Assembly (NCBI RefSeq): GCF_024746835.1
Contig: NZ_CP080531.1
Coordinates: forward strand, 744,001 to 808,000
Origin: Mesorhizobium sp. AR02
Lineage (GTDB): Bacteria > Pseudomonadota > Alphaproteobacteria > Rhizobiales > Rhizobiaceae
Direction of reading: 5' to 3'
DNA: 64,000 bases
The translations under genes were made by a program, and so were the position numbers. The notes under the pieces were generated by a model. The model made no database searches and had not been told where the DNA came from. It saw nothing but the letters and a program-made list of their open reading frames with translations. This document shows positions 44,038-61,153 of this stretch, piece by piece (the first letter of the stretch is position 1; each line of letters opens with the position of its first letter).

Positions 44038-44193
44038 TTTCCCGAAAGCCATGCTGAATTGCGTGGCGCGCCAGGCACGATATTCGAGAGTCTGCCGTTT
44101 CCCTCATGGAGTTTCTCGCAGGTGACGCATCGTCTTTCGTCCAATGCTTCCCTCCAGCCTCTCTGACCTGCGCCCTTACCGGTCACTTTGACG

Positions 44194-45532: not shown

Positions 45533-46339
45533 TTATCGAAATTTCGGAAAGGCGTCGCCGGCCGGCGCGTTGGCCCAGCTTTGCAAGGTCTGGCCGCCGT
45601 CGATCAGCCAGTCGACACCAGTGACATGCCTTGCCTCGTCCGAAGCGAGGAACGCCACGGCGGCCGCGACATCGTCCGGCTGGCCGATGCGGCGCAACGG
45701 GATGCGGTCGGCGAAATGCTGGACGCTGCTCTTGAAATCGCCAGCGCCGGAAGCCGGCACGCCGAGCGTCGTCTCGATCACGCCGGGGCAGATGGCATTG
45801 ACGCGAATGCCGTAGGGCGCGGCATCGAGCGCCGCGACCCGCGTCAGTCCGACCACGCCATGTTTCGAGGCGACGTACCCGGCACCGCCCGCAAGCACGT
45901 CCCAACCGGCCATGGACGAGCCCATATTGACGATCGAGCCACCGGTCCCGGCCTTGATCATCGTCTGAAGCGACGCCTGCAGGACGAGGAAGATGCCGCG
46001 CAGATTGATGCGGATGATGGTGTCCCAGTCCTCGACCGGCAGCTCGTGAACGGGAGCGACGACACCGGAAATGCCGGCATTGTTGAACACGACGTCCAGC
46101 CCGCCGAATGTGTCGACGGTGGTTTCGACGGCGCCGCGCACATTCTTCTCGTCGGTGACGTCGGCTTCGATGGCGATGGTGTTGCCGCCGAGAGAGCGAG
46201 CCAGCTCGTGCGCCGCGGCGCCGTTGCGGTCGACAATGGCGACACGCGCGCCTTCGTCGAGGAAACGCCGGACCGCGGCACTGCCAATGGCGCCGGCGCC
46301 GCCGGTGACAAGGACCTTCTTCTGGTCGAACCGTTTCAT
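45533..46339 (-). CDS. Short-chain dehydrogenase/reductase of the nucleoside-like cluster
   Basis: A 268-residue classical SDR. The cofactor motif is VTGGAGAIGSAAVRRFL, with NNAG near residue 89, the catalytic serine in NMGSSMAGW, and YVASK. The C-terminus has HVTGVDWLIDGGQ. Its ATG (46339) overlaps the stop of the epimerase-like gene by 4 bases, so the two are translationally coupled. It probably oxidizes a sugar or sugar acid released from the imported compound. Redox direction and substrate cannot be read from sequence. Confidence 0.8.
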   Translation of the reverse strand: MKRFDQKKVLVTGGAGAIGSAAVRRFLDEGARVAIVDRNGAAAHELARSLGGNTIAIEADVTDEKNVRGAVETTVDTFGGLDVVFNNAGISGVVAPVHELPVEDWDTIIRINLRGIFLVLQASLQTMIKAGTGGSIVNMGSSMAGWDVLAGGAGYVASKHGVVGLTRVAALDAAPYGIRVNAICPGVIETTLGVPASGAGDFKSSVQHFADRIPLRRIGQPDDVAAAVAFLASDEARHVTGVDWLIDGGQTLQSWANAPAGDAFPKFR

Positions 46340-47190
46340 TCCTCGGTCTCCGGCTTTGGATAGGAACGCCATGAATGCTCCGGCTCGAAGCCTAGCGCTT
46401 CGCGCGCATGGACCGTGTCGAGCACGGAACCGAAACCGGCAATCGGCCGCGACAGGGCAACGCCTGGATAGACCCGGCGCACCAGCGCGTCGGTTTCCTC
46501 CTCCATGAAGGTGTCGGCGGCGCTGAGCAGGACGCGCAGATGACCCTCGCCTTGCCATTCGAGCGCCCGCAGGAAGCCCTGCCCGGCATCGCGCGCGTCA
46601 AGATAGGCCCACAGGTCGCGGGCACTGTCGGCGGTGGCGCGGCGCGGACCGACGCCGGCGAAGAAGGATTGCGGGGTCTGAATCCATGGCATGCGGATGC
46701 TGACCGCCGAAAAGGCACCGCGGCGCACCGCCGCGTCGACGATTTCCTCGCCCAGCCATTTCGACAGGCCGTACGGATCCTGCGCACCGACCGGGTGGTT
46801 CATGTCGACCGGCAGATAGGGCGGAATGACCGTCTTCTCGAAGAAGGGATAGCCGAAAACGCTGAAGGACGAGGCATAGATAAAGCGCCCGATACCAGCC
46901 ATGGCGGCAGCCTCGACGACATTGTAGGCGGTCGCGACGTTGGTTCGGAACACCTCGCCGCCGGCGCGCCCGGTCGGCCGCGGAATGGCCGCGACATGCA
47001 CGACCGCATCGCAATCGCGCACCAGTTGCAGGGTCGATCCCAGATCCGTCAGGTCGGCGGTGGCGTGGCGCCATGCGCCCTCGACCGGCGCCACAGTATC
47101 GATGCCCAGCACATCATGGCCGGCGGCAAGCAGAGCCTCCGCCACGTGGCGGCCAAGCAGGCCACTCGCACCGGTGACGATCGTCCTCAT
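46336..47190 (-). CDS. NAD-dependent epimerase/dehydratase family protein (extended SDR)
   Basis: A 284-residue extended SDR. The N-terminal cofactor motif is MRTIVTGASGLLGRHVAEAL, the catalytic serine/threonine region FIYASSFSVFG and the YxxxK is YGLSK. This size fits sugar epimerases, uronate dehydrogenases or NDP-sugar enzymes. I chose ATG at 47190 with GAGGG upstream; a longer frame to 47232 would run into the MARR-type motif at 47229-47246. It starts the leftward two-gene operon opposite the cysteine hydrolase gene. Confidence 0.75.
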   Translation of the reverse strand: MRTIVTGASGLLGRHVAEALLAAGHDVLGIDTVAPVEGAWRHATADLTDLGSTLQLVRDCDAVVHVAAIPRPTGRAGGEVFRTNVATAYNVVEAAAMAGIGRFIYASSFSVFGYPFFEKTVIPPYLPVDMNHPVGAQDPYGLSKWLGEEIVDAAVRRGAFSAVSIRMPWIQTPQSFFAGVGPRRATADSARDLWAYLDARDAGQGFLRALEWQGEGHLRVLLSAADTFMEEETDALVRRVYPGVALSRPIAGFGSVLDTVHAREALGFEPEHSWRSYPKPETEE

Positions 47191-47228
47191 ATCACGGCCC
47201 TCGGCTCGCAAGCACAGAGGCTTGGATA

Positions 47229-47246
47229 TCATTGATGGTCATACAA
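47229..47246 (-). promoter_or_regulatory. Candidate MarR site, epimerase promoter
   Basis: The minus strand reads TTGTATGACCATCAATGA, 39 bases upstream of the epimerase ATG. It matches the site at 47388-47405 at 15 of 18 positions and the site at 51233-51250 at 15 of 18. The TTG and CAA ends are inverted copies. Confidence 0.5.
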
Positions 47247-47387
47247 ATCGAGCACATGGTTGCCGACCCTTGTCAAGGCCATTTCGCGTTGAACAAATAG
47301 CGCATACGCTTGTGCGAGCGGCGTGCGCAAGGCCGGTGACCAAAGCTTTGCGTCGAACGGGATTGACTTGGCATCCGCCAGGGTTTT

Positions 47388-47405
47388 TTGTATGAGTATC
47401 AACGA
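47388..47405 (+). promoter_or_regulatory. Candidate MarR site, cysteine hydrolase-marR promoter
   Basis: TTGTATGAGTATCAACGA lies 20 bases upstream of the cysteine hydrolase ATG at 47425. The MarR gene is second in that operon, so the site would give autoregulation. Three similar sites occur upstream of other genes of the cluster. Confidence 0.5.
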
Positions 47406-47424
47406 TCGACCAAAGGAGTCCGCC

Positions 47425-48069
47425 ATGGCCGTGGACGTTTTTTCCTCACATCGGCATGACGACGCGATGCGCCTTGATCCGCAACGCGCAGCCATTATCG
47501 TCATCGACATGGTCAACGAGTTCTGCAAACCGGGCGGAGCGATGGTCCTGCCGGGATATGAGACGCTGGTGGCGCCGCAACTGGCCGTTATCGAGGCGGC
47601 GCGCGCCAGCGGCGTGCCGGTGATCTGGGTTCACGATGCGCACCGGCCGGGCATGCGCCGCGAGCGCGAATGGGTCAAGCGCACGCCGCATTGCGTGGAA
47701 GGCAGCTGGGGACCGGAGATCATCGAGGATCTCGGCGCCCGCGATGACGAGATCCATGTCATCAAGCGGCGCTACTCGGCCTTCTTTCAGACCGATCTCG
47801 ATCTGACGCTCAAGGATATGCAGGTCGACCAATTGGTCATCTTCGGCGTGGTCACCAACATTTGCGTGCGTTCGACCGTCCACGACGCGTTTTTCCAGGG
47901 CTATGAGGTGGTGGTGCCGAGCGATTGCTGCGCCGCGACCGGACCGCGCGAGCAGGAAAGCTCGCTCTACGACATAGCGACGCATTTCGGCGTGGTCAGC
48001 GATTCGGCTGATGTCGTCGCGGCCCTTCGCGATGGGACGTCGCTGCAACCGACCGAAGTCGCGGCTTGA
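47425..48069 (+). CDS. Isochorismatase-family cysteine hydrolase (amidohydrolase type)
   Basis: A 214-residue cysteine hydrolase. The catalytic aspartate is in IIVIDMVNEFC, the lysine in HVIKRRYSAFFQT and the cysteine in GVVTNICVRSTVHDA with the usual cis-peptide VVTN. This triad is that of nicotinamidase, N-carbamoylsarcosine amidase and the ureidoacrylate amidase RutB. It should hydrolyse an amide or carbamoyl group, and is not a true isochorismatase. The start is ATG at 47425 with AAAGGAG upstream. Being beside an amidohydrolase and nucleoside hydrolases, it may release ammonia or carbamate after ring opening. Confidence 0.8.
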   Translation: MAVDVFSSHRHDDAMRLDPQRAAIIVIDMVNEFCKPGGAMVLPGYETLVAPQLAVIEAARASGVPVIWVHDAHRPGMRREREWVKRTPHCVEGSWGPEIIEDLGARDDEIHVIKRRYSAFFQTDLDLTLKDMQVDQLVIFGVVTNICVRSTVHDAFFQGYEVVVPSDCCAATGPREQESSLYDIATHFGVVSDSADVVAALRDGTSLQPTEVAA

Positions 48070-48115
48070 ACGATCCAGAGCCAGCGGCATCCGAGACAGG
48101 CAAAAGGAGTGCGGT

Positions 48116-48649
48116 TTGACGACCGAAAAGAAATCCGAGAAAAGCGCGACACCGAAGCGGGAACCACCGACCCGCGAGCAGGTGCTGGAGCGCTACGCTG
48201 AGACCGGATACGCGTTGGACCAGCATCCGGCGCACGTCATCCGCAAGGCGCATCAGCGCGCGACGCTGCGTTTCCAGCAGGTCATGGCCGGCGAAGATCT
48301 GTCGCCGACCCAGTTCGCAGCCCTTGCCACGATCCTCAAACATGGCGAGGTCTCGCAGAACCATCTCGGACGGCTGACGGCGATGGACCCGTCGACCATC
48401 AGCATCGTCATGCGTAAATTGCTCAAGCACGGGCTGATCACGCGCAGCGCTTCCGACACCGACCAGCGCCTGTCGATGATCGCACTGACCGAAAAAGGCA
48501 CCGAATACACGCTCGAGCGGCTCGCACGCAGCGTCGAGGTCGGACGGCGTTTCCTGTCACCGCTGTCACCCGCCGAGCAGGCGACGCTGCTTCGCCTGCT
48601 CAAGCGCATCAATGACGACGATCCATCGAATGGCGACGGCGGCAAGTAG
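48116..48649 (+). CDS. MarR-family transcriptional regulator
   Basis: A 177-residue winged-helix protein. The MarR core runs over residues about 35-160, with QFAALATILKHGEVSQNHLG, then PSTISIVMRKLLKHGLITR and a wing containing SDTDQRLSMIALTEKG. The start is TTG at 48116 with AAAAGGAG upstream. It follows the cysteine hydrolase by 46 bases. MarR proteins are usually repressors released by small aromatic or heterocyclic ligands. Four similar inverted motifs in the promoters of this cluster make it the likely local regulator. Confidence 0.85.
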   Translation: MTTEKKSEKSATPKREPPTREQVLERYAETGYALDQHPAHVIRKAHQRATLRFQQVMAGEDLSPTQFAALATILKHGEVSQNHLGRLTAMDPSTISIVMRKLLKHGLITRSASDTDQRLSMIALTEKGTEYTLERLARSVEVGRRFLSPLSPAEQATLLRLLKRINDDDPSNGDGGK

Positions 48650-48692
48650 GCCGCGTCCAGACCCTTTTCCGTACCAGCAGAAGTGAGAACCG

Positions 48693-49889
48693 ATGCCGTC
48701 CGACCCCAAGTCGTCTGCCAACACGCTCGTCGTCCGCAATATCGGCCTCATGCTGAGCGGCGACCTCGGCCAGCCGATCCTCGACGCCGACACCATCGTC
48801 GTGACCGACGGGCGCATATCAGGCATTGGCAAGGCTGGTGATGTCGACACCGGTAATGCGGCGACGATCATCGATGCGATGGGCTGCGCGGTGGCGCCGG
48901 GGCTGATCGACAACCATGCCCATCCGGTGGCCGGCGACTGGACGCCGCGGCAGAACCAGATCGGCTGGATGGATTCGACCGTGCATGGCGGCGTCACCAC
49001 GATCATTTCGGCCGGAGAGGTCCACACGCCAGGGCGCCCGCGCGACCTGGTCGGGCTGAAGGCATTGGCGATCGCGGCGCAGCGGACCTTCTCCAATTTC
49101 CGCCCCAACGGCATGAAGATCCTGGCCGGCGCCCCCATCCTGGAACACGGCCTGGTCGAGGATGACTTCCGATATCTCGCCGAAGCCGGCGTGACACTTG
49201 TCGGCGAGGTCGGCCTCGGTGGCGTCAAGGATGGTCCGACCGGCCGGCAGATGATCGGCTGGGCGCGCAAATACGGCATGACCTCGATGACCCATACGGG
49301 TGGCCCATCCCTGCCCGGTTCCGGCCGCATCGGCGCGGACGTCGTGCTGGAGGTCGACGCCGACATCGTTGCCCACGTCAACGGCGGGCCGACGGCGCTT
49401 CCCGAAGCCGAGATCAGGCAGATCTGCGAGAACGGCACGCGTGCGCTTGAAATCGTCCACAACGGCAATCTGCGCACCGGACTGTTCGTGCTCGACCTGG
49501 CCAGGCAGCGCGGCGAACTTGCGCGCGTCATCCTCGGCACCGACAGCCCGGCCGGATCCGGCGTGCAGCCGCTCGGCATCCTGCGGACGCTGACCATGCT
49601 GGCTTCGCTGGGCGGTGTCGCGCCGGAAGTGGCGTTCTGTCTCGCCAGCGGCAACACGGCGCGGGTGCGCGGACTGACCGACCGCGGCATCATCGAAATC
49701 GGCCGCGCCGCCGACCTGATCTTCATCGACCAGGCGATGGGCGGCGCTGGCGACGGGCTCCTCGACAGCGTGGCGCTCGGCAATCTGCCGGGCATCGGCA
49801 TGGTCGTCATCGACGGCGAGGTGCGCACTGGCCGGAGCCGCAACACCCCGCCGGCGATGCGGGTGCCGGAAGTTCGGGCTGCGCAGTGA
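48693..49889 (+). CDS. Amidohydrolase, enamidase-like
   Basis: A 398-residue metal-dependent amidohydrolase (TIM barrel with N-terminal beta-sandwich). The HxH motif is GLIDNHAHPVAGDWTPRQ near residue 70. Further metal ligands appear in LVGEVGLGGVK (Glu, in the place of the carboxylated Lys), MTHTGG, VAHVNGGPTA and the aspartate in LGTDSPAGSG. The DNHAHPV..GDW..RQ and GEVGLGG segments recall enamidase, the 6-oxo-tetrahydronicotinate-opening enzyme. It may therefore open a partly reduced nitrogen heterocycle. It follows marR by 43 bases. Confidence 0.7.
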   Translation: MPSDPKSSANTLVVRNIGLMLSGDLGQPILDADTIVVTDGRISGIGKAGDVDTGNAATIIDAMGCAVAPGLIDNHAHPVAGDWTPRQNQIGWMDSTVHGGVTTIISAGEVHTPGRPRDLVGLKALAIAAQRTFSNFRPNGMKILAGAPILEHGLVEDDFRYLAEAGVTLVGEVGLGGVKDGPTGRQMIGWARKYGMTSMTHTGGPSLPGSGRIGADVVLEVDADIVAHVNGGPTALPEAEIRQICENGTRALEIVHNGNLRTGLFVLDLARQRGELARVILGTDSPAGSGVQPLGILRTLTMLASLGGVAPEVAFCLASGNTARVRGLTDRGIIEIGRAADLIFIDQAMGGAGDGLLDSVALGNLPGIGMVVIDGEVRTGRSRNTPPAMRVPEVRAAQ

Positions 49890-49907
49890 CGATGGCCTTC
49901 TGGCCCG

Positions 49908-50492
49908 TCAGCTAACTCCATCCTTGCCGATGACCTTGTCCTTGGTCAGCCCGCCGACGCGCGGGTGCGGCCGGCCGGAATCGGTGACGGCGATGGCGAC
50001 GACGATCTCGTCGGCGCGCGGTGCATCTGGGACGCGGACCTCCATGCCGTCGAAATGGCTGCGCACCTTCGCCGCGTCTTTGTGGCCGAGCGGAATGTCG
50101 AGCGGCACGCCGAGACCGCCGCGCTTCTTCGATGAGGGAATGAGCGCGGCGCCCTTGCCCAGCACGTCGCGGAACGGGGCGCCAAGCGTTGGGTGAAGAA
50201 TGGCGGCGGCATGTTCAAGCTCGCCGTCGGCGCCGACGGCGGCTGCCTTGCCGAAGCTCTCGACCTGGTCGCCGGCAATGCCAAGAGCAGCCACCGCACG
50301 CCTGGGCAAGATATCGCCCAGCGCTTCGCCAATATCGCTCAACGCCGACAGATCCTCGACAAACGTGCCGGCATAGGGATTGCGGATCACCGCGATCGCC
50401 GCGGCACGCCGGGTCGGCGGGTCGACGGGGCGGCCGCCTTCGATCCGGGTTTCCTCAACGATGGTGATGATGCGGCGGATTTCCATGCTCAT
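49908..50492 (-). CDS. DUF1185 / amino acid synthesis family protein, paralogue A
   Basis: A 194-residue protein of the AA_synth (DUF1185) family. It shares with its neighbour the pattern PTRRAAAIAVIRNPYAGTFVEDLS, then GELEHAAAILHPTLG, RSHFDGMEVRV and a C-terminal ARVGGLTKD-like end. The biochemical role of the family is unknown to me. Its ATG overlaps the stop of the following paralogue by 4 bases, so the pair is co-translated. It converges on the amidohydrolase gene, 18 bases away. Confidence 0.75.
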   Translation of the reverse strand: MSMEIRRIITIVEETRIEGGRPVDPPTRRAAAIAVIRNPYAGTFVEDLSALSDIGEALGDILPRRAVAALGIAGDQVESFGKAAAVGADGELEHAAAILHPTLGAPFRDVLGKGAALIPSSKKRGGLGVPLDIPLGHKDAAKVRSHFDGMEVRVPDAPRADEIVVAIAVTDSGRPHPRVGGLTKDKVIGKDGVS

Positions 50493-51073
50493 CGCAATCC
50501 GTCCTCGCCCTTGATGTCGGCCGCCGCCAGGCCGCCGACCCGCGCATGAACGCGGGCACCGGTGGTCATCGCCAGGATCACCGCCATCTCGTCGCTGCGC
50601 GGTGCATCGCCAACGCCGATCTCGATCGCGTCGAAATGGCTGCGCACATAGGAGGCGTTGATGTGGGTGATCGGAATATCGATACGCGTCCCGGGGCCGC
50701 CGACCTTCTTGGTCGAGGGCACGATGGCCTTGGCGTCGCCAAGAAGTTCGCGCATCGCGTAGCCGCCTGGATTGTGCCAGAGCGCACCATGTTCAAGCTC
50801 GCCGGCGGCGCCGACGATGGCCCCCTTGCCATAGCCTTCGACAGCGGCGACGCCATCGCCTATGGCATCGATCAGGCGCCGCGCCATTTCGAGGCCGAGC
50901 GGCTTCAGATCCTCCATGAAGCCGGTGATCTCTTCGACGTAGCGTCCGGCAAAAGGGTTGGCGATGACGGCGACGATCGCGCCACGCTTGGGCGGGCGTG
51001 CGGCGGGGGGCCCGCCCTCATGGAATATCTCCTCGACCTGGACCAGAAATTTCCTGACCACCACAGCTGGCAT
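50489..51073 (-). CDS. DUF1185 / amino acid synthesis family protein, paralogue B
   Basis: A 194-residue protein, the same length as its partner. Shared blocks are PKRGAIVAVIANPFAGRYVEEI, GELEHGALWHNPGG, IPITHINASYVRSHFD and RVGGLAAADIKGEDG. I chose ATG at 51073 (MPAVVVRKF) with GAAGGA upstream. A candidate MarR site lies about 35 bases upstream. Two adjacent paralogues suggest a heteromer or two linked steps. The function is not known. Confidence 0.75.
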   Translation of the reverse strand: MPAVVVRKFLVQVEEIFHEGGPPAARPPKRGAIVAVIANPFAGRYVEEITGFMEDLKPLGLEMARRLIDAIGDGVAAVEGYGKGAIVGAAGELEHGALWHNPGGYAMRELLGDAKAIVPSTKKVGGPGTRIDIPITHINASYVRSHFDAIEIGVGDAPRSDEMAVILAMTTGARVHARVGGLAAADIKGEDGLR

Positions 51074-51107
51074 TGCGCGTATCCTTCGTCCCGTCACTCA
51101 TGAAAAC

Positions 51108-51125
51108 TCGTTAGAGTATCAACAA
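51108..51125 (+). promoter_or_regulatory. Candidate MarR site, DUF1185 promoter
   Basis: TCGTTAGAGTATCAACAA lies 35 bases upstream of the DUF1185 operon start. GAGTATCAAC is identical to the word at 47394-47403 before the cysteine hydrolase. It matches that site at 14 of 18 positions. Confidence 0.45.
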
Positions 51126-51232
51126 TTATGCATCGCCGATATTTGTCAAGCGGCGAGGTGGAGGACGCGGATGACAGGCCCAAGAAAACTGCATCGGATG
51201 ACGATTGACAGCCTGTTTAGCCGCTCCTAAAC

Positions 51233-51250
51233 TCATATGACCATCAACGA
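51233..51250 (+). promoter_or_regulatory. Candidate MarR site, BMP transporter promoter
   Basis: TCATATGACCATCAACGA lies about 80 bases upstream of the solute-binding protein gene at 51330. It matches the epimerase-promoter site (47229-47246) at 15 of 18 positions. The rest of 51074-51329 shows no gene. Confidence 0.45.
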
Positions 51251-51329
51251 ACTCGCCGGCATTCCGGCGATATGTGGGGGATGGTCAAGGCGTGGCTTCA
51301 AAAGCTGAAAAAAGCTGAAGGGGAATAAC

Positions 51330-52334
51330 ATGACAAGGGCGCTCAAGAGTTTGTTTCTGGCCGGCACGATGCTGGCCGTTTCGTTGGGATCGGCCGCCGC
51401 ACAGGCCAAGGTTTCGGTGGCCGCCATCTCGGGATATTTCGCCCAGGGTTTTGGCGTTTCGATCGTCAACGGCCTCAACAAGGCCAAGGCCGATTTCGGC
51501 ATCGACCTCAAGCTGGTCGACACCGGCAATCGCGCATTGGACTATCAGGAGCAGTTCGAAAACCTCGCCAAGGGCAAACAGTACGACCTCATCTTCGTGA
51601 TGGGCTGGGAGCTGGTGGATTCGCTGCAGAAGGTCAGCAAGGAATATCCAGACCAGCGCTTCGTCTTCATCGACGGCGTGCTCGACAATCCCAAGATGAT
51701 CTACGCCAACTTCGCCGAAGAACAGGGCTCCTTCGTCGCCGGCGCGCTGGCCAGCATGATCGAGGCCAAGGGCAGCGAATTTCCCAAGATCGGCGACGGC
51801 AAGGCAATCGGCTTCGTCGGCGGCCGCGACATCCCGGTGATCCGCAACTTCCTTGGCGGCTATGAGCAGGGCGCCAAATACGCCGCGCCCGACGTGAAGG
51901 TGAATTCCGTCTTCGCCGGCACTTTCGATGATCCGGCCAAGGGCAGCGAGCTTGCCCAGGCGCTTTACGGCCAGGGCTCCGACATCGTCTATAACGTCGC
52001 CGGCCCGACCGGCGAAGGCGTGATGCAGGCCAGTGCCGCCGCCGACAAATATTCGATCGGCGTCGATATCGACATGTGCGGCACGGCCCCCGGAAATGTG
52101 CTCGGCAGCATGCTGAAGCGCGGCGACATCGCCGTCTACACGCTAATCAAGGACGAGGTCGGCGGCAACAAGGTCACCGCCGGCACTCGCACCTTCGACC
52201 TCGCATCGGGCGGCGTCGAGTTCAAGGTCTGCGACGACATCGCGCCGAAGATCCCGGCCGACGTCACGACCAAGCTCGACGAGATCAAGAAGGGCATCCT
52301 CGACGGCAAGATCGTGATCGCCAAGGCGAAATAG
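51330..52334 (+). CDS. BMP-family (basic membrane lipoprotein-like) nucleoside-type substrate-binding protein
   Basis: A 334-residue periplasmic protein of the Bmp/PnrA family. The signal peptide is MTRALKSLFLAGTMLAVSLG with cleavage near AAAQA-KV. The family signature appears as LIFVMGWELVDSLQKVSKEYPDQRF followed by FIDG, then FAEEQGSFVAGALASMIE and DIVYNVAGPTGEGVM. Members bind purine nucleosides. It is the first gene of a six-gene rightward operon ending in two nucleoside hydrolases, which supports a nucleoside-like ligand. Confidence 0.85.
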   Translation: MTRALKSLFLAGTMLAVSLGSAAAQAKVSVAAISGYFAQGFGVSIVNGLNKAKADFGIDLKLVDTGNRALDYQEQFENLAKGKQYDLIFVMGWELVDSLQKVSKEYPDQRFVFIDGVLDNPKMIYANFAEEQGSFVAGALASMIEAKGSEFPKIGDGKAIGFVGGRDIPVIRNFLGGYEQGAKYAAPDVKVNSVFAGTFDDPAKGSELAQALYGQGSDIVYNVAGPTGEGVMQASAAADKYSIGVDIDMCGTAPGNVLGSMLKRGDIAVYTLIKDEVGGNKVTAGTRTFDLASGGVEFKVCDDIAPKIPADVTTKLDEIKKGILDGKIVIAKAK

Positions 52335-52369
52335 GCCAGCAACAGCGCATCCCTCCCAAGAAAGCGCTA

Positions 52370-52405
52370 CACTGATCCGCCGCGGCTTGCCGCGGCGGAT
52401 CAGTG
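52370..52405. terminator. Very strong intercistronic hairpin after the BMP gene
   Basis: CACTGATCCGCCGCGG (52370-52385) and CCGCGGCGGATCAGTG (52390-52405) form a perfect 16-base stem around the loop CTTG. It lies 36 bases after the binding-protein stop and before the ATPase gene. There is no T-run. It should stabilize the binding-protein mRNA or attenuate transcription into the transporter genes. Confidence 0.75.
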
Positions 52406-52432
52406 TCCAATCTGCCAGTCTGCGAGAGCATC

Positions 52433-53995
52433 GTGTCGAACGCGCCGGAGTCCCCGACCCTGCACAGCACAGCCGCGATGGCCGTCGAGTTGACGGCTAT
52501 CACCAAGCGTTTTGGCGCCTTCATTGCCAATGACGGCATCGACCTTGCCGTGCGCCGGGGCGAAATCCACGCCATCATCGGCGAAAACGGCGCCGGCAAG
52601 ACAACGCTGATGAACATCCTGTTCGGCCTGCTGCAACCCGACGAAGGCTCGATCCGGCTGAATGGCGAGGCGACGGTGGTCGCCGACCCGGCGGCCGCCA
52701 TCAAGGCGGGCCTCGGCATGGTGCACCAGCATTTCAAGCTGGTGCCTTCGCTCTCGGTCGCCGACAATGTCTTTCTCGGCATGGAAATCCGCCGTCATGG
52801 GTTGATCGACCATGCCGCGCAGATCGCGCGCACACACGAACTGTCGAAGCGTTTCGGCCTGCATGTCGATCCGACCGAGCGCGTCGGGCTGCTCTCGGTC
52901 GGCATCGAGCAGCGCATCGAGATCCTGAAAGTTCTGGTGCGCGGCGCCCGCACCATCATCCTCGACGAGCCGACCGCGGTGCTGACGCCGCAGGAGAGCC
53001 GCGAACTGTTCCAGACGCTGCGCAGCTTCGTGGCCGAGGGCATGACGGTGATCTTCATCTCGCACCATCTGGAAGAGGTGATGGAGGTGTCCGACACGGT
53101 GACGGTGCTGCGCAACGGCCGCAAGGTCGCGACCCGCCCGACGTCGGAACTCAACAAGGACGAGTTGGTGCGCATGATGGTCGGCCGCGAGGTCAGTTTC
53201 GACCGGCGGCCGCGAGCAGCCCTGCACGGCGACATCGTGCTGGACGTCAAGGATCTGTGGGCTCGTGATGATCGCCGCTTGCCGGCCCTTCGCAACGCCA
53301 GTTTCACTGTCCGTTCCGGCGAGGTGGTGGGGATTGCGGGCGTCGCCGGCAATGGGCAGACGGAACTGGCGGAAGTGCTTTCGGGCCTGCGGCCGGCAAG
53401 CCATGGCGAGGCCCGGCTGAAGGGCCAGGACCTCACCACGCTCTCCCCCGCCGCAATCCGCGAGGCCGGCCTTGCCCATGTTCCGGGCGACCGCATGGTG
53501 CGCGGGGTCGATCGCAATGCCTCGATCGCGGCGAACACGCTGATGGGCCGCCAGCACCGCGCACCGTGGAGCCGCAGCGGCCTGCTCGATTGGAAGGCGA
53601 TCGCCGGGAATGCCGGAGCGCTGATCAAGAGCTTCGATATTCGCGCGCAAGGAGCGGGCGACGCCGTCAAGCGGCTTTCCGGCGGCAACATCCAAAAGGT
53701 CGTGCTGGCGCGCGAATTCACCAATGGCGCCGACTTCCTGCTGATCGATCAGCCGACGCGCGGCGTCGATATCGGCGCCCAGGAAGCCATCCATGACGAG
53801 ATCATGCGCCAGCGCGCGGCCGGCCGGGCGATCCTGCTGATTTCCGTGCAGCTTGACGAACTGGCGGCGCTCGCCGACCGCATCCTGGTGATGTTCAACG
53901 GGCGGATCATGGGTGAAGTCGCCGGCGACGATGCCGACGAAGACAGGATCGGCATGATGATGGCGGGCGTGTCGCCGCAACTGGAGCCCGCATGA
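52433..53995 (+). CDS. BMP-type nucleoside ABC transporter ATPase (two ATPase domains)
   Basis: About 520 residues with two ABC domains in tandem, as in RbsA and YufO. The first has Walker A GENGAGKTTLMNIL, signature LSVGIEQRIEI and Walker B TIILDEPTAVLTP. The second has GVAGNGQTELAEVL, signature LSGGNIQKVVLAREF and FLLIDQPTRGVD. The second Walker A lacks the normal Lys-Thr, as is usual for this class. The frame opens at a GTG at 52403 inside the hairpin, so I prefer GTG at 52433; ATG at 52478 is also possible. It powers both permeases downstream. Confidence 0.85.
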   Translation: MSNAPESPTLHSTAAMAVELTAITKRFGAFIANDGIDLAVRRGEIHAIIGENGAGKTTLMNILFGLLQPDEGSIRLNGEATVVADPAAAIKAGLGMVHQHFKLVPSLSVADNVFLGMEIRRHGLIDHAAQIARTHELSKRFGLHVDPTERVGLLSVGIEQRIEILKVLVRGARTIILDEPTAVLTPQESRELFQTLRSFVAEGMTVIFISHHLEEVMEVSDTVTVLRNGRKVATRPTSELNKDELVRMMVGREVSFDRRPRAALHGDIVLDVKDLWARDDRRLPALRNASFTVRSGEVVGIAGVAGNGQTELAEVLSGLRPASHGEARLKGQDLTTLSPAAIREAGLAHVPGDRMVRGVDRNASIAANTLMGRQHRAPWSRSGLLDWKAIAGNAGALIKSFDIRAQGAGDAVKRLSGGNIQKVVLAREFTNGADFLLIDQPTRGVDIGAQEAIHDEIMRQRAAGRAILLISVQLDELAALADRILVMFNGRIMGEVAGDDADEDRIGMMMAGVSPQLEPA

Positions 53996-55035
53996 TGAGC
54001 GACCGTTTGCGCGCCTTTTCCGGCCAGATCATCGCCGTGGGTGTAGCCTTGCTGCTGGGGGCGATCATCATCCTCCTGGTCGGCGAAAGCCCGGTGCGTG
54101 TCTTGATGACGCTGCTGCGCGGCGCATTCGGCGACCAGGAAAAGGTTGCCGGCACCCTGCTGCAGACCACGCCGATCCTGATCTGCGGCGTTGCGGCCTG
54201 CATCGGCCTGCGCGGCGGCATGTTCAATGTCGGCATCGAGGGCCAATTGTTCCTCGGCGGATTTGCCGCCGCCTGGGTCGGCTTCAGCTTTTCCCTGCCC
54301 GCGGGCATCCACACCCTGGCGGCGCTGGCGCTTGCTGTCGTCGCCGGTGCCGCCTGGGTCGCCATCCCTGCCTATTTCCGCGCCCGCTACAACACCAACG
54401 AAGTCGTCTCGACGATCCTGTCGAACTACATCGCCGTGCTGCTCACCTCCTACTTCACCATCTTCCTGTTCAAGCGGCCCGGCGGCTGGTCGGAGACGCC
54501 GCCGATCCTGGCGACAGCCTATCTGCCGGAGATCTTTGCCTTCTCGCGGCTGAACTGGGGGCTGGTGATTGGCCTGCTGCTGGCAGTCGGTGTCGCATTG
54601 GTCTTCCGCTACACCAGCTGGGGCTATGGTGTGACCATGGTCGGATCGGCGCCGAAATTCGCCGAATATGGCGGCGTCAACGTGAAGCGGCAGGGCTTTG
54701 TCGTGCTGCTGCTTTCGGGCGCCGTCGGCGGCCTGGCCGGTGGCGTCGAGACGCTCGGTGTGCATCACCGGTTCATGGAGGGCTTTGCTCCAGGCTTCGG
54801 CTTCGACGGGCTGATCGCCGCCCTGCTCGCCAACGGCTCGCCGGTCGCCACCATCGTCACGGCACTGTTTTTCGGCGCGCTGCGCAGCGGCTCGCTGCTG
54901 CTCGAGGTCGACACCAGCGCGTCGCGCGAAATCATCACCGTGATCCAGGCGCTGATCATCCTCAGTGTATCGGCGCAGGTCCTGATCAAACGCCGCGGCG
55001 ATAGCCAGGCGGGGGAGCGGCGATGGAAATTCTAG
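53992..55035 (+). CDS. BMP-type nucleoside ABC transporter permease 1 (YufP-like)
   Basis: A 347-residue polytopic permease with about nine hydrophobic segments, belonging to the branched-chain/simple-sugar permease family. Landmarks are RGGMFNVGIEGQLFLGGF near residue 72 and the loop GVTMVGSAPKFAEYGGVNVKR near 215. Its ATGATG start overlaps the ATPase stop, and its own end overlaps the second permease by 13 bases. It forms a heterodimeric channel with that protein. Confidence 0.85.
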   Translation: MMSDRLRAFSGQIIAVGVALLLGAIIILLVGESPVRVLMTLLRGAFGDQEKVAGTLLQTTPILICGVAACIGLRGGMFNVGIEGQLFLGGFAAAWVGFSFSLPAGIHTLAALALAVVAGAAWVAIPAYFRARYNTNEVVSTILSNYIAVLLTSYFTIFLFKRPGGWSETPPILATAYLPEIFAFSRLNWGLVIGLLLAVGVALVFRYTSWGYGVTMVGSAPKFAEYGGVNVKRQGFVVLLLSGAVGGLAGGVETLGVHHRFMEGFAPGFGFDGLIAALLANGSPVATIVTALFFGALRSGSLLLEVDTSASREIITVIQALIILSVSAQVLIKRRGDSQAGERRWKF

Positions 55036-56009
55036 ACAAGCTGATCAACGTCGCGCTGATCGCGGCGACGCTTCGCACCACCGCGCCAATTCTCCTGGTC
55101 GCGCTTGGCGGGTCGTTCACCACCAAGGCCGGCATCTTCAACATCGGGCTCGAGGGCCAGATGCTGGCCGGCGCCTTCTTTGCCGTCATCGGCTCGATCT
55201 GGACGGGTTCGGCATTCGCGGGGGTTGCTTGCGGCGTTGCCGCGGCGCTTGCCTTCGCGCTCGCCTTTGCCGTGCTGGTGGTGACGTTCCGGGCCAATGA
55301 AGTGGTCGTCGGCCTGGCGCTCAATATCCTTGCCGGCGGCATGACGATCTCGCTGATGAAAGCGATTTTCGGCACGCGCGGATCGATCGTCGGTCACGGC
55401 ATCGTCGGCCTGCCCAAGGTGCAGATACCTGGCGCCCAGGCGCTGCTCGGCTCGTGGGCGCCGCTGATTTCGGGCTTCACGCCGATTGTCTATGTCGCGT
55501 TCATCGCTGTGCCGCTGCTGGTGCTGTTCTACAACCGCACCCGGCTCGGCCTCTATATCCGCGTCGTCGGCGAAAAGCCCGAAGCCGCCGAGGCGCTCGG
55601 CATCTCGATCACCCGCGTCCGCTACACCGCCTCGCTGCTGTGCGGATTGCTGGCAGGCCTGGCCGGCGCGCATCTGTCGCTTGGCTACATCACCATGTTC
55701 ACCGAGAACATGTCCTCGGGCCGTGGCTTCATGGCGGTGGCCATCCTGATCTTCTCCAATGGCGATCCGCTGAAGGTGCTGGCCGGCTGCCTGCTTTTCG
55801 GTTTCGCCGATGCCTTCTCGCTGCGCCTGCAGACCTTTGGGTTTCCGTCCTATCTGGTGCTCACCGTGCCCTATGTCGTCGCGCTGACCGCCCTGTTCGC
55901 GCTGTCCTACCGGGCACGGCCAAGGATCATCAAGGAGACGCTGGCGTCGATGCAGAAACTGCTGTCGGTGGACAGGAACAACGCCCCGGTCGACAAAAAT
56001 CCGCAATGA
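55023..56009 (+). CDS. BMP-type nucleoside ABC transporter permease 2 (YufQ-like)
   Basis: A 328-residue polytopic permease paralogous to the preceding one. It has FTTKAGIFNIGLEGQMLAGAFFA near residue 35, the cytoplasmic loop LYIRVVGEKPEAAEALGISITR near 180 and GRGFMAVAILIFSNGDPLK. The 13-base overlap with permease 1 shows tight coupling. The next gene, a nucleoside hydrolase, starts 10 bases after its stop, so import and glycoside cleavage are co-expressed. Confidence 0.85.
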   Translation: MEILDKLINVALIAATLRTTAPILLVALGGSFTTKAGIFNIGLEGQMLAGAFFAVIGSIWTGSAFAGVACGVAAALAFALAFAVLVVTFRANEVVVGLALNILAGGMTISLMKAIFGTRGSIVGHGIVGLPKVQIPGAQALLGSWAPLISGFTPIVYVAFIAVPLLVLFYNRTRLGLYIRVVGEKPEAAEALGISITRVRYTASLLCGLLAGLAGAHLSLGYITMFTENMSSGRGFMAVAILIFSNGDPLKVLAGCLLFGFADAFSLRLQTFGFPSYLVLTVPYVVALTALFALSYRARPRIIKETLASMQKLLSVDRNNAPVDKNPQ

Positions 56010-56019
56010 AGGAACTCTC

Positions 56020-57033
56020 ATGGAACGCATAATCCTCGACGTGGATTCTGCCGGCGACGATATTCTCGCCGTGCTGTTTGCCGCGGCGAACCCGAATGTC
56101 CGGCTCGAAGGCGTCACCACAGTCACGGGTGCCGCCGGCCCGATCGAACAGGTCACCAATGTCGTCCTCAACACGCTGACGCTTGCCGGGCGCGACGACA
56201 TCCCGGTTCACGCCGGCGCGTGGCGGCCGATCGTCGGCAATGCCAAGGCCGACATGGAGGCGCCGGTGCATTTCGAAAAGCGGCTGGTTGCCCGCTTCGG
56301 CGACCGGCTGAAGAAGTTCAATCCACCAGCGCCGACCCCCTCACGCCAGGCGACGCCGGGGCATGCCGTCGACTTCATCATCAACACGGTGATGGCCAAC
56401 CCGGGTGAGATCACGCTGGTGACGACGGGGCCGCTGACCAATGCGGCGATGGCGCTGCTGCAGGAGCCGCGCCTGACGGGCGCACTCAAGCGGCTCTTGG
56501 TGCTAGGCGGCAACTTCCAGACGCCCGGCAACATGACGCCGCTGTCGGAGTACAACATCTGGGCCGATCCGGAGGCGTCGCGCATCGTGCTCAACGCCGA
56601 TGTCGACAAGATTCTGGTGCCGCTCGACATCTGCGAGGACAACCGCGTCGCCGCCTCGATGCTGACGCGCGACGACATTGCCGACATGCAGGCCGTTACG
56701 CGGAAGAATGCCGTCTTCGACATGATCGCCGACAGCTTCCCGATCTATATCGACATCTGGCGCGAGTTCTTCGACCTGGTCGGCTTTCCGATGGACGACG
56801 TGATCACCGTGGCGCTGGCCTTCGACCCGACGCTTGCCACCATGACCGAACCGCTCTTCGTCGATGTCGTGCTGGACGGGCGTCTCGCACGCGGACAGAC
56901 GGTTGCCCATCGCGGCCGGCAATTGCTGCCCGGCGGCGGGCCGAAGACCACGCGCATCTGCACCGATCTCGACGGCCGCCGCTTCCTGAACATCTTCAAG
57001 CAAACCATCGCGCGCTACGAACAAGCGGCGTGA
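56020..57033 (+). CDS. Nucleoside hydrolase-family protein with altered active-site motif
   Basis: A 337-residue IUNH-family protein. The N-terminal metal motif DxDxGxDD reads LDVDSAGDDILAV, keeping the aspartates but changing the Pro-Gly part. The asparagine/aspartate segment NIWADPEASRIVL is present. The C-terminal metal region, normally HDPLA, reads MDDVITVALAFDP, so histidine is replaced by aspartate. The family cleaves N-glycosidic bonds of nucleosides. The changes suggest an unusual base or sugar, or reduced activity. It is tightly followed by a more canonical paralogue. Confidence 0.8.
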   Translation: MERIILDVDSAGDDILAVLFAAANPNVRLEGVTTVTGAAGPIEQVTNVVLNTLTLAGRDDIPVHAGAWRPIVGNAKADMEAPVHFEKRLVARFGDRLKKFNPPAPTPSRQATPGHAVDFIINTVMANPGEITLVTTGPLTNAAMALLQEPRLTGALKRLLVLGGNFQTPGNMTPLSEYNIWADPEASRIVLNADVDKILVPLDICEDNRVAASMLTRDDIADMQAVTRKNAVFDMIADSFPIYIDIWREFFDLVGFPMDDVITVALAFDPTLATMTEPLFVDVVLDGRLARGQTVAHRGRQLLPGGGPKTTRICTDLDGRRFLNIFKQTIARYEQAA

Positions 57034-57044
57034 GGACCGATAAA

Positions 57045-57977
57045 ATGACCATTGCAACTCCCATCCTGTTCGATTGCGATCCCGGCCATGACGACGCCAT
57101 CGCGCTGGTCATGGCGCATCGTTCGCCGGCCATCGAACTCATCGGCGTCACCACCACCTGCGGCAATGCCGAGGTCGAGAAGACGACGGCCAATGCGCTG
57201 CGCATCCTCGAGTATATAGGCGCCGGCGACGTACCAGTCGCTCAAGGGTGCCATCGTCCGCTGGCGCGGCCGTTGGTGCTTGGCACCGCCGATGGTCCGA
57301 GCGGCCTCGAAGGCTCGCCCTACCTGCCGCAGGCCACAATCAAGCCGGTCGACCAGCACGCCATCGATTTCCTGGCCGACAAGCTGCGCGCCGCGCCCGA
57401 ACCGATCCTGGTCGTCGCCACCGGCCCACTGTCCAACATCGGCCTCATGATCCTCAAGCATCGCGACGTGCTGCCCAAGATCAAGGAATTGATCTGGATG
57501 GGCGGCGTCTTCTACCGCAAGAGCGAGATCATCACGCCGACGGAGTTCAATGCCTTCTGCGATCCGGAGGCGCTGAAGATCGTGCTGGACAGCGGCGTGC
57601 CGATCCTGATGGTCGGGCTCGATGTCACCATGCAGGTGCTGATCGAGGCGCCGCAATATGCCGAGCTCGCCACGATCGACACGCCGCTGGGCAGGCTCGT
57701 CAACGACTGGCTGCTGTTCTACGAGAAGCTGCACCGCAACTCGATGGGTGTCGGCGGCGCCATGCACGATCCGTTGGCGCTGGCGCTGGCCATCGACCCG
57801 ACGCTGGTGCGCACGCGCCCGGCCCATATCGGAGTCGATCTGTCCGGCACCTATGCCTTTGGCGCGACGGTTGCCGATTTCTGGGGCGAGCGCGGCGAGA
57901 AGGACAATGCCCGTATCGCCCATGAGGTCGACGCGGATCGTTTCTTCAAACTGATGTTCGACCTGCTGCGGGATTAG
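57045..57977 (+). CDS. Nucleoside hydrolase (canonical IUNH motif)
   Basis: A 310-residue IUNH-family N-ribohydrolase. The metal and catalytic motif is ILFDCDPGHDDAIAL at residues 7-21; the substrate asparagine/aspartate segment is NAFCDPEALKIVL and the C-terminal MHDPLALALAIDP keeps histidine and aspartate. It should release a base from an imported nucleoside. I chose ATG at 57045 with GAGGA upstream; a GTG at 57030 overlaps the previous stop. It is the last gene of the transporter operon. Confidence 0.85.
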   Translation: MTIATPILFDCDPGHDDAIALVMAHRSPAIELIGVTTTCGNAEVEKTTANALRILEYIGAGDVPVAQGCHRPLARPLVLGTADGPSGLEGSPYLPQATIKPVDQHAIDFLADKLRAAPEPILVVATGPLSNIGLMILKHRDVLPKIKELIWMGGVFYRKSEIITPTEFNAFCDPEALKIVLDSGVPILMVGLDVTMQVLIEAPQYAELATIDTPLGRLVNDWLLFYEKLHRNSMGVGGAMHDPLALALAIDPTLVRTRPAHIGVDLSGTYAFGATVADFWGERGEKDNARIAHEVDADRFFKLMFDLLRD

Positions 57978-58014: not shown

Positions 58015-58887
58015 TCAGCGTGACCCGGTGCCGAGGACCGGGTCAGACAATCTTTCGGCATGCCATCTCAGATGGTCGTCCATGAATGTCGAAATGAAGA
58101 AATACGAGTGATCGTAGCCGTCCTGCATGCGCAGGGTCAGCGCAATACCGGCCTTGGCGCAGGCCGCTTCCAGAAGCCAGGGTCTCAGCCCGTCGTTGAG
58201 AAAACCGTCCGACGTCCCTTGGTCGACGAAAAGCTCGGGGAAGCGGTGGCCATCCTCGATGAGCAAGGTGGCATCGTAGCCCCGCCATGATGTCTCGTCC
58301 GCGCCGAGATATTTTTCGAGGGCCGGCCGCGACCAGCCGGCAGTGCTCGGCTGCACGATCGGCGCGAAGGCCGAGCAGCTTTTGAAGCGCTCGGGATTTT
58401 TGAGCGCGATCGTCAGTGCGCCATGCCCACCCATCGAGTGGCCGAAGATCGCCTGGCGCGTCATGTCGGCCGGAAATTCCTGTGCGATCAGCGCCGGCAA
58501 TTCCTCGGTGACATAGGAGTACATGCGGTAGTTCGTGGCGTAGGGCGCTTGCGTCGCATCGACGTAGAAGCCGGCGCCGCTGCCGAACTGCCAATTGTCC
58601 TTCTCGTCGGGAATGTCGGCGCCGCGCGGGCTGGTGTCGGGACAGACGACGATCAGGCCAAGCTCGGCGGCCATGCGCCTGTACTCACCCTTGTCCATCA
58701 CATTGGCATGGGTACAGGTGAGGCCGGAGAGATACCACACGACAGGGCAAGGCTTTTCACGGGCCTGCGGCGGCACGAAGACGGCGAAAATCATGTCGCA
58801 GGCGCAGACATCCGAAGCGTGGGAATAGACGCCCTGCACGCCGCCATGCGACCTGGCCGAGGAGATGGTCTTCATCCGGTCCGACAT
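58015..58887 (-). CDS. fghA: S-formylglutathione hydrolase
   Basis: A 290-residue esterase-D/FGH serine hydrolase. The nucleophile elbow is GHSMGGHGAL near residue 148, the catalytic aspartate is in LFVDQGTSD and the histidine in DGYDHSYFF. Length and these motifs match glutathione-dependent formaldehyde detoxification, where it splits S-formylglutathione to formate and glutathione. I chose ATG at 58887 with GGAG upstream; a start at 58911 is possible. It follows a TMADH-like demethylase gene by 74 bases on the same strand, a sensible source of formaldehyde. Confidence 0.85.
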   Translation of the reverse strand: MSDRMKTISSARSHGGVQGVYSHASDVCACDMIFAVFVPPQAREKPCPVVWYLSGLTCTHANVMDKGEYRRMAAELGLIVVCPDTSPRGADIPDEKDNWQFGSGAGFYVDATQAPYATNYRMYSYVTEELPALIAQEFPADMTRQAIFGHSMGGHGALTIALKNPERFKSCSAFAPIVQPSTAGWSRPALEKYLGADETSWRGYDATLLIEDGHRFPELFVDQGTSDGFLNDGLRPWLLEAACAKAGIALTLRMQDGYDHSYFFISTFMDDHLRWHAERLSDPVLGTGSR

Positions 58888-58961
58888 GTTCTTTTTCTCC
58901 GCCATCGGCAAACTTCAGGGCTGCCTGTCTAAGGACCATGGTTGCCAGGCGCAAGTCCCGC

Positions 58962-61031: not shown

Positions 61032-61153
61032 GGTGCTTCCTTCCTGCCAGCGTCGCATCGCGGCATGCGCGGTGATGGTTTGGCGCAAGCCGGTCCGCCC
61101 GGTGGGTAGATGCCGTGAGCCTACTCATAAGTTGCGGCGCGTGCCGGAAAACT

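Follow-up and report, generated by a model that had tools for sequence, protein, structure and literature searches.

In this work we have examined a gene cluster at 45.5-58.0 kb of a stretch of 64,000 nucleotides from Mesorhizobium sp. AR02 (the window; positions 744001-808000 of contig C2 of the 8.9 Mb host genome, G000), to which the nearest loci are those of Mesorhizobium, and we consider it as a candidate system for the uptake and breakdown of an N-glycoside. The cluster consists of four presumed transcription units: SDR and epimerase-like dehydrogenase (EPI) genes on the minus strand; a RutB-like amidase (ISO), a MarR regulator and an enamidase homologue (ENA) on the plus strand; a DUF1185 pair on the minus strand; and a BMP-type substrate-binding protein, an ATPase, two permeases and the nucleoside hydrolases NH1 and NH2 on the plus strand. 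The BMP protein, NH1, NH2, ISO, MarR, ENA, the DUF1185 pair, SDR and EPI make up the core set of ten. Gene families were assigned by Pfam and NCBIfam models, and the searches with ISO used a start at 47419, two codons upstream of the one given here. The features are:

45533..46354, minus strand, start approximate: SDR oxidoreductase (adh_short_C2, 3e-64)
46336..47190, minus strand, likely start 47190, overlapping SDR: NAD-dependent epimerase/dehydratase-type (extended SDR) enzyme, EPI (Epimerase, 6.7e-28)
47229..47243, minus strand: operator-like site of the SDR/epimerase unit, exact TATGANYATCAAYRA
47391..47405, plus strand: operator-like site of the amidase-MarR-enamidase unit, exact match
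47425..48069, plus strand: isochorismatase-fold amidase, ISO (Isochorismatase, 1.4e-46)
48113..48649, plus strand, start approximate: MarR regulator (MarR, 1.9e-12)
48693..49889, plus strand: enamidase homologue, ENA (Amidohydro; 2vun 7.3e-110, 371 bits, residues 12-393)
49908..50492, minus strand: DUF1185/AA_synth b (PF06684, 3.1e-73)
50489..51073, minus strand: DUF1185/AA_synth a (PF06684, 2.3e-72; 3byq 192.8 bits; model pLDDT 82)
51111..51125, plus strand, computed position: operator-like site near DUF1185a, 2 mismatches
51236..51250, plus strand: operator-like site of the BMP operon, exact match
51330..52334, plus strand: BMP-type substrate-binding protein (Bmp, 5.3e-52)
52403..53995, plus strand: ABC ATPase (ABC_tran, 7.9e-49)
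53992..55035, plus strand: ABC permease 2 (BPD_transp_2, 2.4e-32)
55023..56009, plus strand: ABC permease 1 (BPD_transp_2, 4.2e-34)
56020..57033, plus strand: nucleoside hydrolase NH1 (IU_nuc_hydro, 9.9e-74)
57045..57977, plus strand: nucleoside hydrolase NH2 (IU_nuc_hydro, 8.9e-88)

All the genes named in an earlier, sequence-only reading of this DNA lie where it had placed them, and the Pfam families agree with its labels (Bmp, IU_nuc_hydro twice, Isochorismatase, MarR, Amidohydro, AA_synth twice, adh_short and Epimerase). That reading took the BMP importer and the two hydrolases to be co-transcribed; the six genes from BMP to NH2 do share one strand and overlap or lie at most 68 bp apart, a layout which makes co-transcription plausible. 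It had also proposed a search of genomes for co-occurrence, and this showed that the cluster recurs across genera and families and survives inversion and relocation. Among 36 loci of GTDB genomes found by an enamidase search, 25 have all ten core genes and 4 more are truncated by contig ends; Ochrobactrum sp. CM-21-5 and one Rhizobiales isolate have the importer-hydrolase operon in reverse orientation on the opposite flank, still adjacent. Seven of the 36 loci, with enamidase identities of 61-66% and three of them being stretches of about 12 kb or less, have no importer and hydrolases. In a family sample of 151 genomes ENA was found in 22 (at 1e-40, the threshold also used for the reductase counts below), and wider stretches were read for 21 of these, G056 being left out. 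A close BMP protein (at least 61% identity) occurs in 11 of the 151 genomes, and the remaining listed BMP matches reach at most 40%. Absence of the importer and hydrolases, which had been named as the mark of chance neighbouring, was seen in this sample only around remote enamidases: all ten genomes with ENA of at least 67% identity carry BMP, NH1, NH2, ISO, MarR, both DUF1185 genes, EPI and SDR in the stretches read, and the 12 with ENA below 67% have no close BMP protein anywhere in the genome. In other families ENA of 65-67% also keeps the importer and hydrolases, and the loci L034-L036, at 65-66%, do not (two are short contigs). SDR was present in all 12 full modules examined. The eleventh genome with a close BMP protein, G116, has no ENA match at 1e-40 and carries on one strand BMP, a transporter, NH1, NH2, ISO, MarR and one DUF1185 gene, followed in the place of ENA by HyuA and HyuB (Pfam-supported), with EPI and SDR divergent from this run. 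As an independent test of linkage, a search of 297 genomes of the order was seeded with NH1 and gave matches at 1e-110 in ten, three of the window's genus (its own genome included) and seven in two other families. In six of these seven, BMP, NH1, NH2, ISO, MarR, ENA and the DUF1185 pair occur together, and in five of the six the importer, hydrolases, ISO, MarR and ENA are co-directional in a row.

The four units also share a 15-base motif, TATGASYATCAAYRA, usually with TTG directly before it, which stands upstream of each of them; the site of the DUF1185 unit has two mismatches and the other three are exact. The pattern was built from the window's own sites, whose exact matches hold by construction, and it is the recurrence of the pattern elsewhere, in other genomes, which counts as independent evidence. 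In many other loci it lies upstream of the same genes, at times as a near-perfect TTGTTTG...CAAACAA dyad. An equivalent of the DUF1185 site with 2-3 mismatches is found at the same place in six loci (L024, L030, L031, L065, L066 and L069, of which L031 and L066 have identical sites), and the motif precedes BMP in three loci of another family (L212, L214 and L215). With one position set to N, the own genome holds three exact copies, all in the cluster, and twelve one-mismatch copies elsewhere; the reversed motif, used as a control, gave two matches, and upstream regions shuffled by mononucleotide had a match with at most 3 mismatches in 72 of 1340 cases. We infer that MarR is the protein which binds this motif. 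Recurrence across genera and families, survival of rearrangement and the shared motif contradict chance neighbouring, and it is highly probable that the genes form one conserved, apparently co-regulated unit.

What, then, is degraded by this unit? The label enamidase-like, given to ENA from its sequence, proved understated. Residues 12-393 align over the full length with residues 4-384 of the Eubacterium barkeri enamidase (2vun, 371 bits), while the next solved structure scores 31 bits and cyclic ureidohydrolases at most 28.4 bits. The metal-motif positions are kept (HAHP at 75, VGEVG at 170, HTGG at 201, HVNGG at 228 and GTDSP at 282) and line up with HVH, GEVG, HTGG, HINGG and GND of 2vun; we take the HxH, Glu, His, His and Asp to be the metal ligands. 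Enamidase opens tetrahydro-6-oxonicotinate (THON) with simultaneous deamination to 2-formylglutarate, as described in PMC9304392. Remote enamidases adjoin a further protein, HNR, in 9 of 17 remote loci, often together with a Mo-hydroxylase, a UPF0280-like protein and a DUF1185 pair (flanking labels such as UPF0280, luciferase-type and CUT1/HAAT/UrtA-like were assigned by eye unless a family model is named). At the cut-offs applied, HNR had no match among the Pfam and NCBIfam models; its relatives are named 6-hydroxynicotinate reductase by public sources.

The identity of the ring is best approached through the distribution of this reductase. HNR is found in 57 of the 151 family genomes, of which 15 have ENA and 44 a close HyuB: 13 have ENA only, 42 HyuB only, two both and none neither, a complementarity with a Fisher p of 4e-11 without phylogenetic correction. 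The only two genomes with both, G000 and G051, carry the present cluster. A HyuB was counted as close if it had at least 66% identity to the G116 protein: of 48 genomes with a match at 1e-150, G060 (42%) and G098 (54%) were dropped and 46 were kept. Only 2 of the 94 genomes without HNR have it, one of them being G116. ENA lies within 20 kb of HNR in 6 of the 15 genomes. The complementarity suggests that reductive nicotinate catabolism has in HyuA/HyuB a ring opener which had gone unrecognised, and most likely this pair would perform the enamidase step in most of the nicotinate-type genomes with HNR. Because HyuA/HyuB swaps for ENA both in G116 and among the HNR genomes, the ring of the cluster would be a nicotinate-type, THON-like lactam, for which we see even odds.

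Neither HNR nor a Mo-hydroxylase was found in the stretches of the 12 full modules, and a reading by eye of six stretches picked out no recurrent reductase, HNR-like or other, next to the cluster. At the level of genomes, a threshold as loose as E 0.001 gave no HNR in 7 of 10 ENA-bearing carriers of the family sample, nor in G116, the same query matching 57 family genomes as a positive control. HNR is also absent from 4 of 6 ENA-bearing carriers in other families, which makes 11 of the 16 overall; the 25 GTDB loci are outside these reductase counts, as are the same-genus NH1 carriers G355 and G394, which have the reductase and whose ENA status was not part of the count. A simple nicotinate cluster was rejected on these grounds. 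Since 11 of the 16 carriers are without HNR, the ring is probably imported already reduced. G066 and G074 have ISO, ENA and DUF1185 with a UrtA-like importer and no hydrolases nearby (ENA of G074 being on a separate contig), as though the ring could also enter in free form; these two genomes have HNR elsewhere. Both importers are present in G118, Ochrobactrum and another Rhizobiales genome. Matches to L-2-hydroxyglutarate oxidase stand beside the module in G094 (L071, above the cut-off) and G083 (L068, below it); such neighbours would fit a C5 dicarboxylate product, although two genomes are too few.

As for the other enzymes, the nearest solved relative of ISO is RutB (8bkd, 106 bits), with biuret hydrolase and N-carbamoylsarcosine amidase lower. 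ISO passes no NCBIfam equivalog cut-off, and its 118.7 bits against the RutB equivalog (cut-off 377.95) led us to reject the canonical Rut pathway. Its Asp, Lys and Cys stretches, presumably the catalytic triad, are kept in 16 sequences. Both hydrolases keep the DxDxxxDD signature of IU nucleoside hydrolases (DVDSAGDD in NH1, DCDPGHDD in NH2). In all 17 sequences compared, which include near-duplicates, P[ML]DD replaces the PxHDP of RihA-like enzymes in NH1 and TADG replaces the NVHG of RihA in NH2; the His replaced is catalytic in pyrimidine hydrolases. NH2 is closest to these, and neither protein passed its equivalog (NH1 185.3 against 450 for UriH, NH2 260.2 against 433 for RihA). The BMP protein is nearest to 7x0r (121 bits), then to BmpD (6shu) and TmpC (2fqw), and was rejected as a B6 importer (NF047927, 42.3 bits against a cut-off of 400). 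SDR is barely above the cut-off of the NCBIfam glucose-1-dehydrogenase subfamily (221.1 against 215), and the solved relatives of EPI are weak (4id9, 68.5 bits; the uronate dehydrogenases 6mfh and 3rft, 54 and 44.5 bits). In L069, L070, L072, L212-L214 and L216, sugar-type ABC importer genes (by eye) and a xylose-isomerase-like TIM barrel lie in or beside the module, in some cases also with a Gfo/Idh/MocA dehydrogenase; these neighbours fit the sugar half of a glycoside.

The DUF1185 family (AA_synth, PF06684), which had been described as having no assigned role, is not wholly without a lead. The pair in the cluster scores 245.4 and 242.6 bits against a gathering score of 27, and the host genome has six copies. 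One of them (L088:8355-11034, C2 at about 1.265 Mb) directly adjoins MHPCO, the B6 ring-cleavage oxygenase, and AAMS hydrolase, which score 852 and 568 bits against solved enzymes. Two more lie near luciferase-type monooxygenase, aldehyde dehydrogenase and alpha/beta-hydrolase genes (by eye), in stretches which we take to resemble trigonelline (Tgn) gene clusters. Among the best 30 of the 57 HNR loci, which were the ones examined, 28 have DUF1185 after HNR; in the exceptions, G118 and G074, the pair lies in the ENA/ISO cluster instead. According to PMC7913881, TgnF of trigonelline breakdown and HcdD are members of the family; TgnF is reported there to stimulate succinic semialdehyde oxidation, and efforts to demonstrate the like for HcdD did not succeed. 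Hydrolysis of the amide would be expected to yield an enamine of the aminomethylene-dicarboxylate type in both the B6 and the nicotinate pathway, and we predict by analogy that DUF1185 may act on this product as RutC does after RutB. A search of the PDB gave no sequence match between DUF1185 and Rid proteins; the structure comparison allows a RutC-like role without strong support. Fold matches to the cyclic amide hydrolase family were weak and shared with Rid and chorismate mutase, and DUF1185 as a ring-opening cyclic amide hydrolase was rejected for this lack of specificity and because a close HyuB in 42 of 42 HNR genomes without ENA makes it unneeded.

Among the closest known systems is reductive nicotinate catabolism (Eubacterium barkeri; the Azorhizobium caulinodans and Bradyrhizobiaceae SG-6C cluster), which the present cluster resembles in its full-length enamidase homologue, in DUF1185 beside the ring-cleavage genes of related loci and in a MarR gene in many of them. 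It differs in having no Mo-hydroxylase or HNR (and in most carriers tested no genomic HNR match), in adding a glycoside importer, nucleoside hydrolases and sugar-type dehydrogenases, and in an amidase which is RutB-like, not nicotinamidase-like. With the Rut pyrimidine pathway (RutB, RutC) it shares an isochorismatase-fold amidase and a protein whose fold may be chorismate-mutase-like; however, ISO is far below the RutB cut-off, there is no RutA-type oxygenase among the cluster genes and DUF1185 gave no sequence match to Rid proteins in the PDB search. The creatinine/N-methylhydantoin route combines HyuA/HyuB with N-carbamoylsarcosine amidohydrolase, as G116 combines HyuA/HyuB with an isochorismatase-fold amidase, whereas 16 of the 17 carriers compared (G390 left out) have ENA, and the cluster adds the glycoside importer and hydrolases. 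In trigonelline and vitamin B6 degradation the ring is opened by oxygenases, while the cluster is proposed to open it by hydrolysis. The likeness to these two lies in the last steps, where DUF1185 occurs as TgnF (PMC7913881) and, in the present genome, beside MHPCO and AAMS hydrolase. Searches of open-licence PMC papers, aimed at the combination or at its parts, brought up no account of such a pathway.

With a probability of about 0.5, we read the cluster as a MarR-controlled catabolic regulon for an N-glycoside of a partly reduced pyridinone (a THON-type lactam), both halves of which are degraded. The most plausible description is a form of reductive nicotinate-type breakdown which is fed by a glycoside and does without the reductase. 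The wider statement, that the substrate is an N-glycoside and its ring is opened by hydrolysis, is considerably safer and can be called likely. Uptake of a glycoside and opening of its base had been claimed already from the sequence; import, glycosidic cleavage and hydrolytic ring opening stand as the natural reading of a conserved linkage, and the substrate is a deduction. In the scheme which we propose, the BMP ABC importer would take up the glycoside and NH1 and/or NH2 would hydrolyse the N-glycosidic bond. The order of what follows is conjectural: ISO may strip a carboxamide or carbamoyl group, in the role that a nicotinamidase-like gene may have beside nicotinate loci; ENA would hydrolyse the ring lactam; the DUF1185 pair would handle the resulting enamine or 2-formyl-dicarboxylate in a RutC-like manner; and SDR and the epimerase-like dehydrogenase would oxidise the sugar or the hemiaminal form of the ring.

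Several points weigh against this reading. The substrates of all the cluster enzymes are deduced from sequence. HNR is present in 5 of the 16 ENA-bearing carriers, and its absence from the others does not exclude an unrelated ring reductase. The genomes are related and the co-occurrence counts are not independent; only 26 of the 44 genomes have HyuB within 20 kb of HNR, and HyuA/HyuB enzymes also open hydantoins and oxoproline. Could the ring be other than THON? W83 and F133 are found in all 13 BMP-linked ENA sequences (two of them identical) and in two ISO-linked ones, and the corresponding residues are Tyr/Tyr in E. barkeri and in 8 of 9 HNR-linked enzymes. ENA further differs from the HNR-linked set at 197, 199, 200, 227 and 233, E. 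barkeri sharing 233 with the cluster type. Such differences near the metal motifs mean that the ring may differ from THON. A strict link between W83/F133 and absence of the reductase was dropped: the exception among the HNR-linked enzymes, L036, has W/F beside the reductase, and L034 and L035 also have W/F, with no reductase seen in their stretch. At the thresholds used, no motif was found in L161, L171, L211, L213 and L216, nor, one site excepted, in L032 and L033. Finally, G390 (L211) has the importer, NH1 and NH2, and the 20 kb read there contain neither ENA nor ISO nor DUF1185; its cluster is reduced, or the remainder is located elsewhere.

The alternative that survives best, although unlikely, is that the base belongs to a damaged or modified nucleoside, dihydrouridine for example, and is a ureide ring (a hydantoin or dihydropyrimidine), which ENA or HyuA/HyuB would open to an N-carbamoyl acid for ISO to decarbamoylate. 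The creatinine/N-methylhydantoin route has this logic, its ring being opened to an N-carbamoyl acid from which an isochorismatase-fold enzyme removes the carbamoyl group. The relatives of ISO (RutB, biuret hydrolase and N-carbamoylsarcosine amidase), the replacement of ENA in G116, the closeness of NH2 to pyrimidine hydrolases and related clusters with a UrtA-like importer (scoring below the UrtA cut-off) all agree with it. However, the close HyuB tracks HNR and is thereby tied to nicotinate-type rings, NH1 and NH2 are each without one residue kept by RihA-like enzymes, and ENA matches the enamidase far above any cyclic ureidohydrolase.

Is it possible that the cluster simply feeds the ordinary reductive nicotinate pathway? 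Plant nicotinate N-glycosides would be imported and cleaved, and the nicotinate hydroxylated and reduced elsewhere in the genome before it reaches ENA; we hold this to be improbable. Plants do make such glycosides, tentatively including an N-pentoside and an N-rhamnoside (PMC6776627). The own genome has a second locus (L086, C2:2428000-2447900) with a Mo-hydroxylase, HNR, DUF1185 and a nicotinamidase-like gene and no ENA in the 20 kb read, and the placement of the DUF1185 pair in G118 and G074 looks as if the two loci cooperate. Against this stand the 11 carriers without HNR and a close HyuB in the own genome (C2:2574982), the stand-in for ENA of other HNR genomes. Least probable of all is a general purine/pyrimidine nucleoside salvage operon lying by chance beside an unrelated amide-degradation cluster, since the motif common to all units, the co-directional order in another family and the repeated re-association after rearrangement speak against it, even though a BMP importer with nucleoside hydrolases is an ordinary combination and G390 on the one hand and G066 and G074 on the other show the two halves apart.

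The flanks of the cluster and more distant loci offer some further observations. At 44188-45485 of the window an FAD-dependent oxidase appears split over two overlapping frames (44188-45120 and 44640-45485) by a frameshift or sequencing error; it resembles L-pipecolate oxidase, with 221 bits over the N-terminal part, below the cut-off. On the other side, at 58015-61034 on the opposite strand, an S-formylglutathione hydrolase and a fused OYE/FAD oxidoreductase adjoin the cluster, as they do in some Mesorhizobium loci. They were rejected as core genes: the hydrolase occurs in 9 of the 36 loci, several of which end near this position, and the oxidoreductase in 4 of those 9, and neither was present in any non-Mesorhizobium stretch inspected. 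A separate family of BMP-importer operons (L163-L170, e.g. L166:5942-15113) contains a remote isochorismatase-fold gene together with a PfkB kinase, a nucleoside phosphorylase, an SIS-domain protein and an aldehyde dehydrogenase (Pfam for L166 only). All 9 genomes with a weak ISO match have it next to a weak BMP match; 8 of the 9 were inspected in part.

Perhaps bacteria with the cluster feed on damaged NAD(P)H in its hydrated form, with the NADHX nucleoside as substrate, though we consider this specific form of the pyridinone glycoside doubtful. NADHX carries 6-hydroxy-1,4,5,6-tetrahydronicotinamide. Its nucleoside would be imported, and SDR or the epimerase-like enzyme would oxidise the 6-hydroxyl, a hemiaminal which is sugar-lactol-like, to the lactam; the hydrolases would remove the ribose, the amidase would yield tetrahydro-6-oxonicotinate, the enamidase or HyuA/HyuB would open the ring, and the DUF1185 pair would deaminate the enamine to a formyl-dicarboxylate. 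If true, this would explain a nicotinate-pathway ring opener without a ring reductase, and would place DUF1185 generally at the step after the amide is hydrolysed, in the breakdown of trigonelline, vitamin B6 and nicotinate alike. Should the main reading, that of a pyridinone glycoside, be right, the function of DUF1185 would become testable, as would HyuA/HyuB as a second, unrelated opener of reductive nicotinate catabolism, a close HyuB without enamidase being present in 42 of the 57 HNR genomes. Soil and legume-associated bacteria would in that case have a route for glycosides of nicotinamide-like rings which are reduced beforehand, and reduced or damaged pyridine nucleosides would be a nutrient, an undescribed food source.

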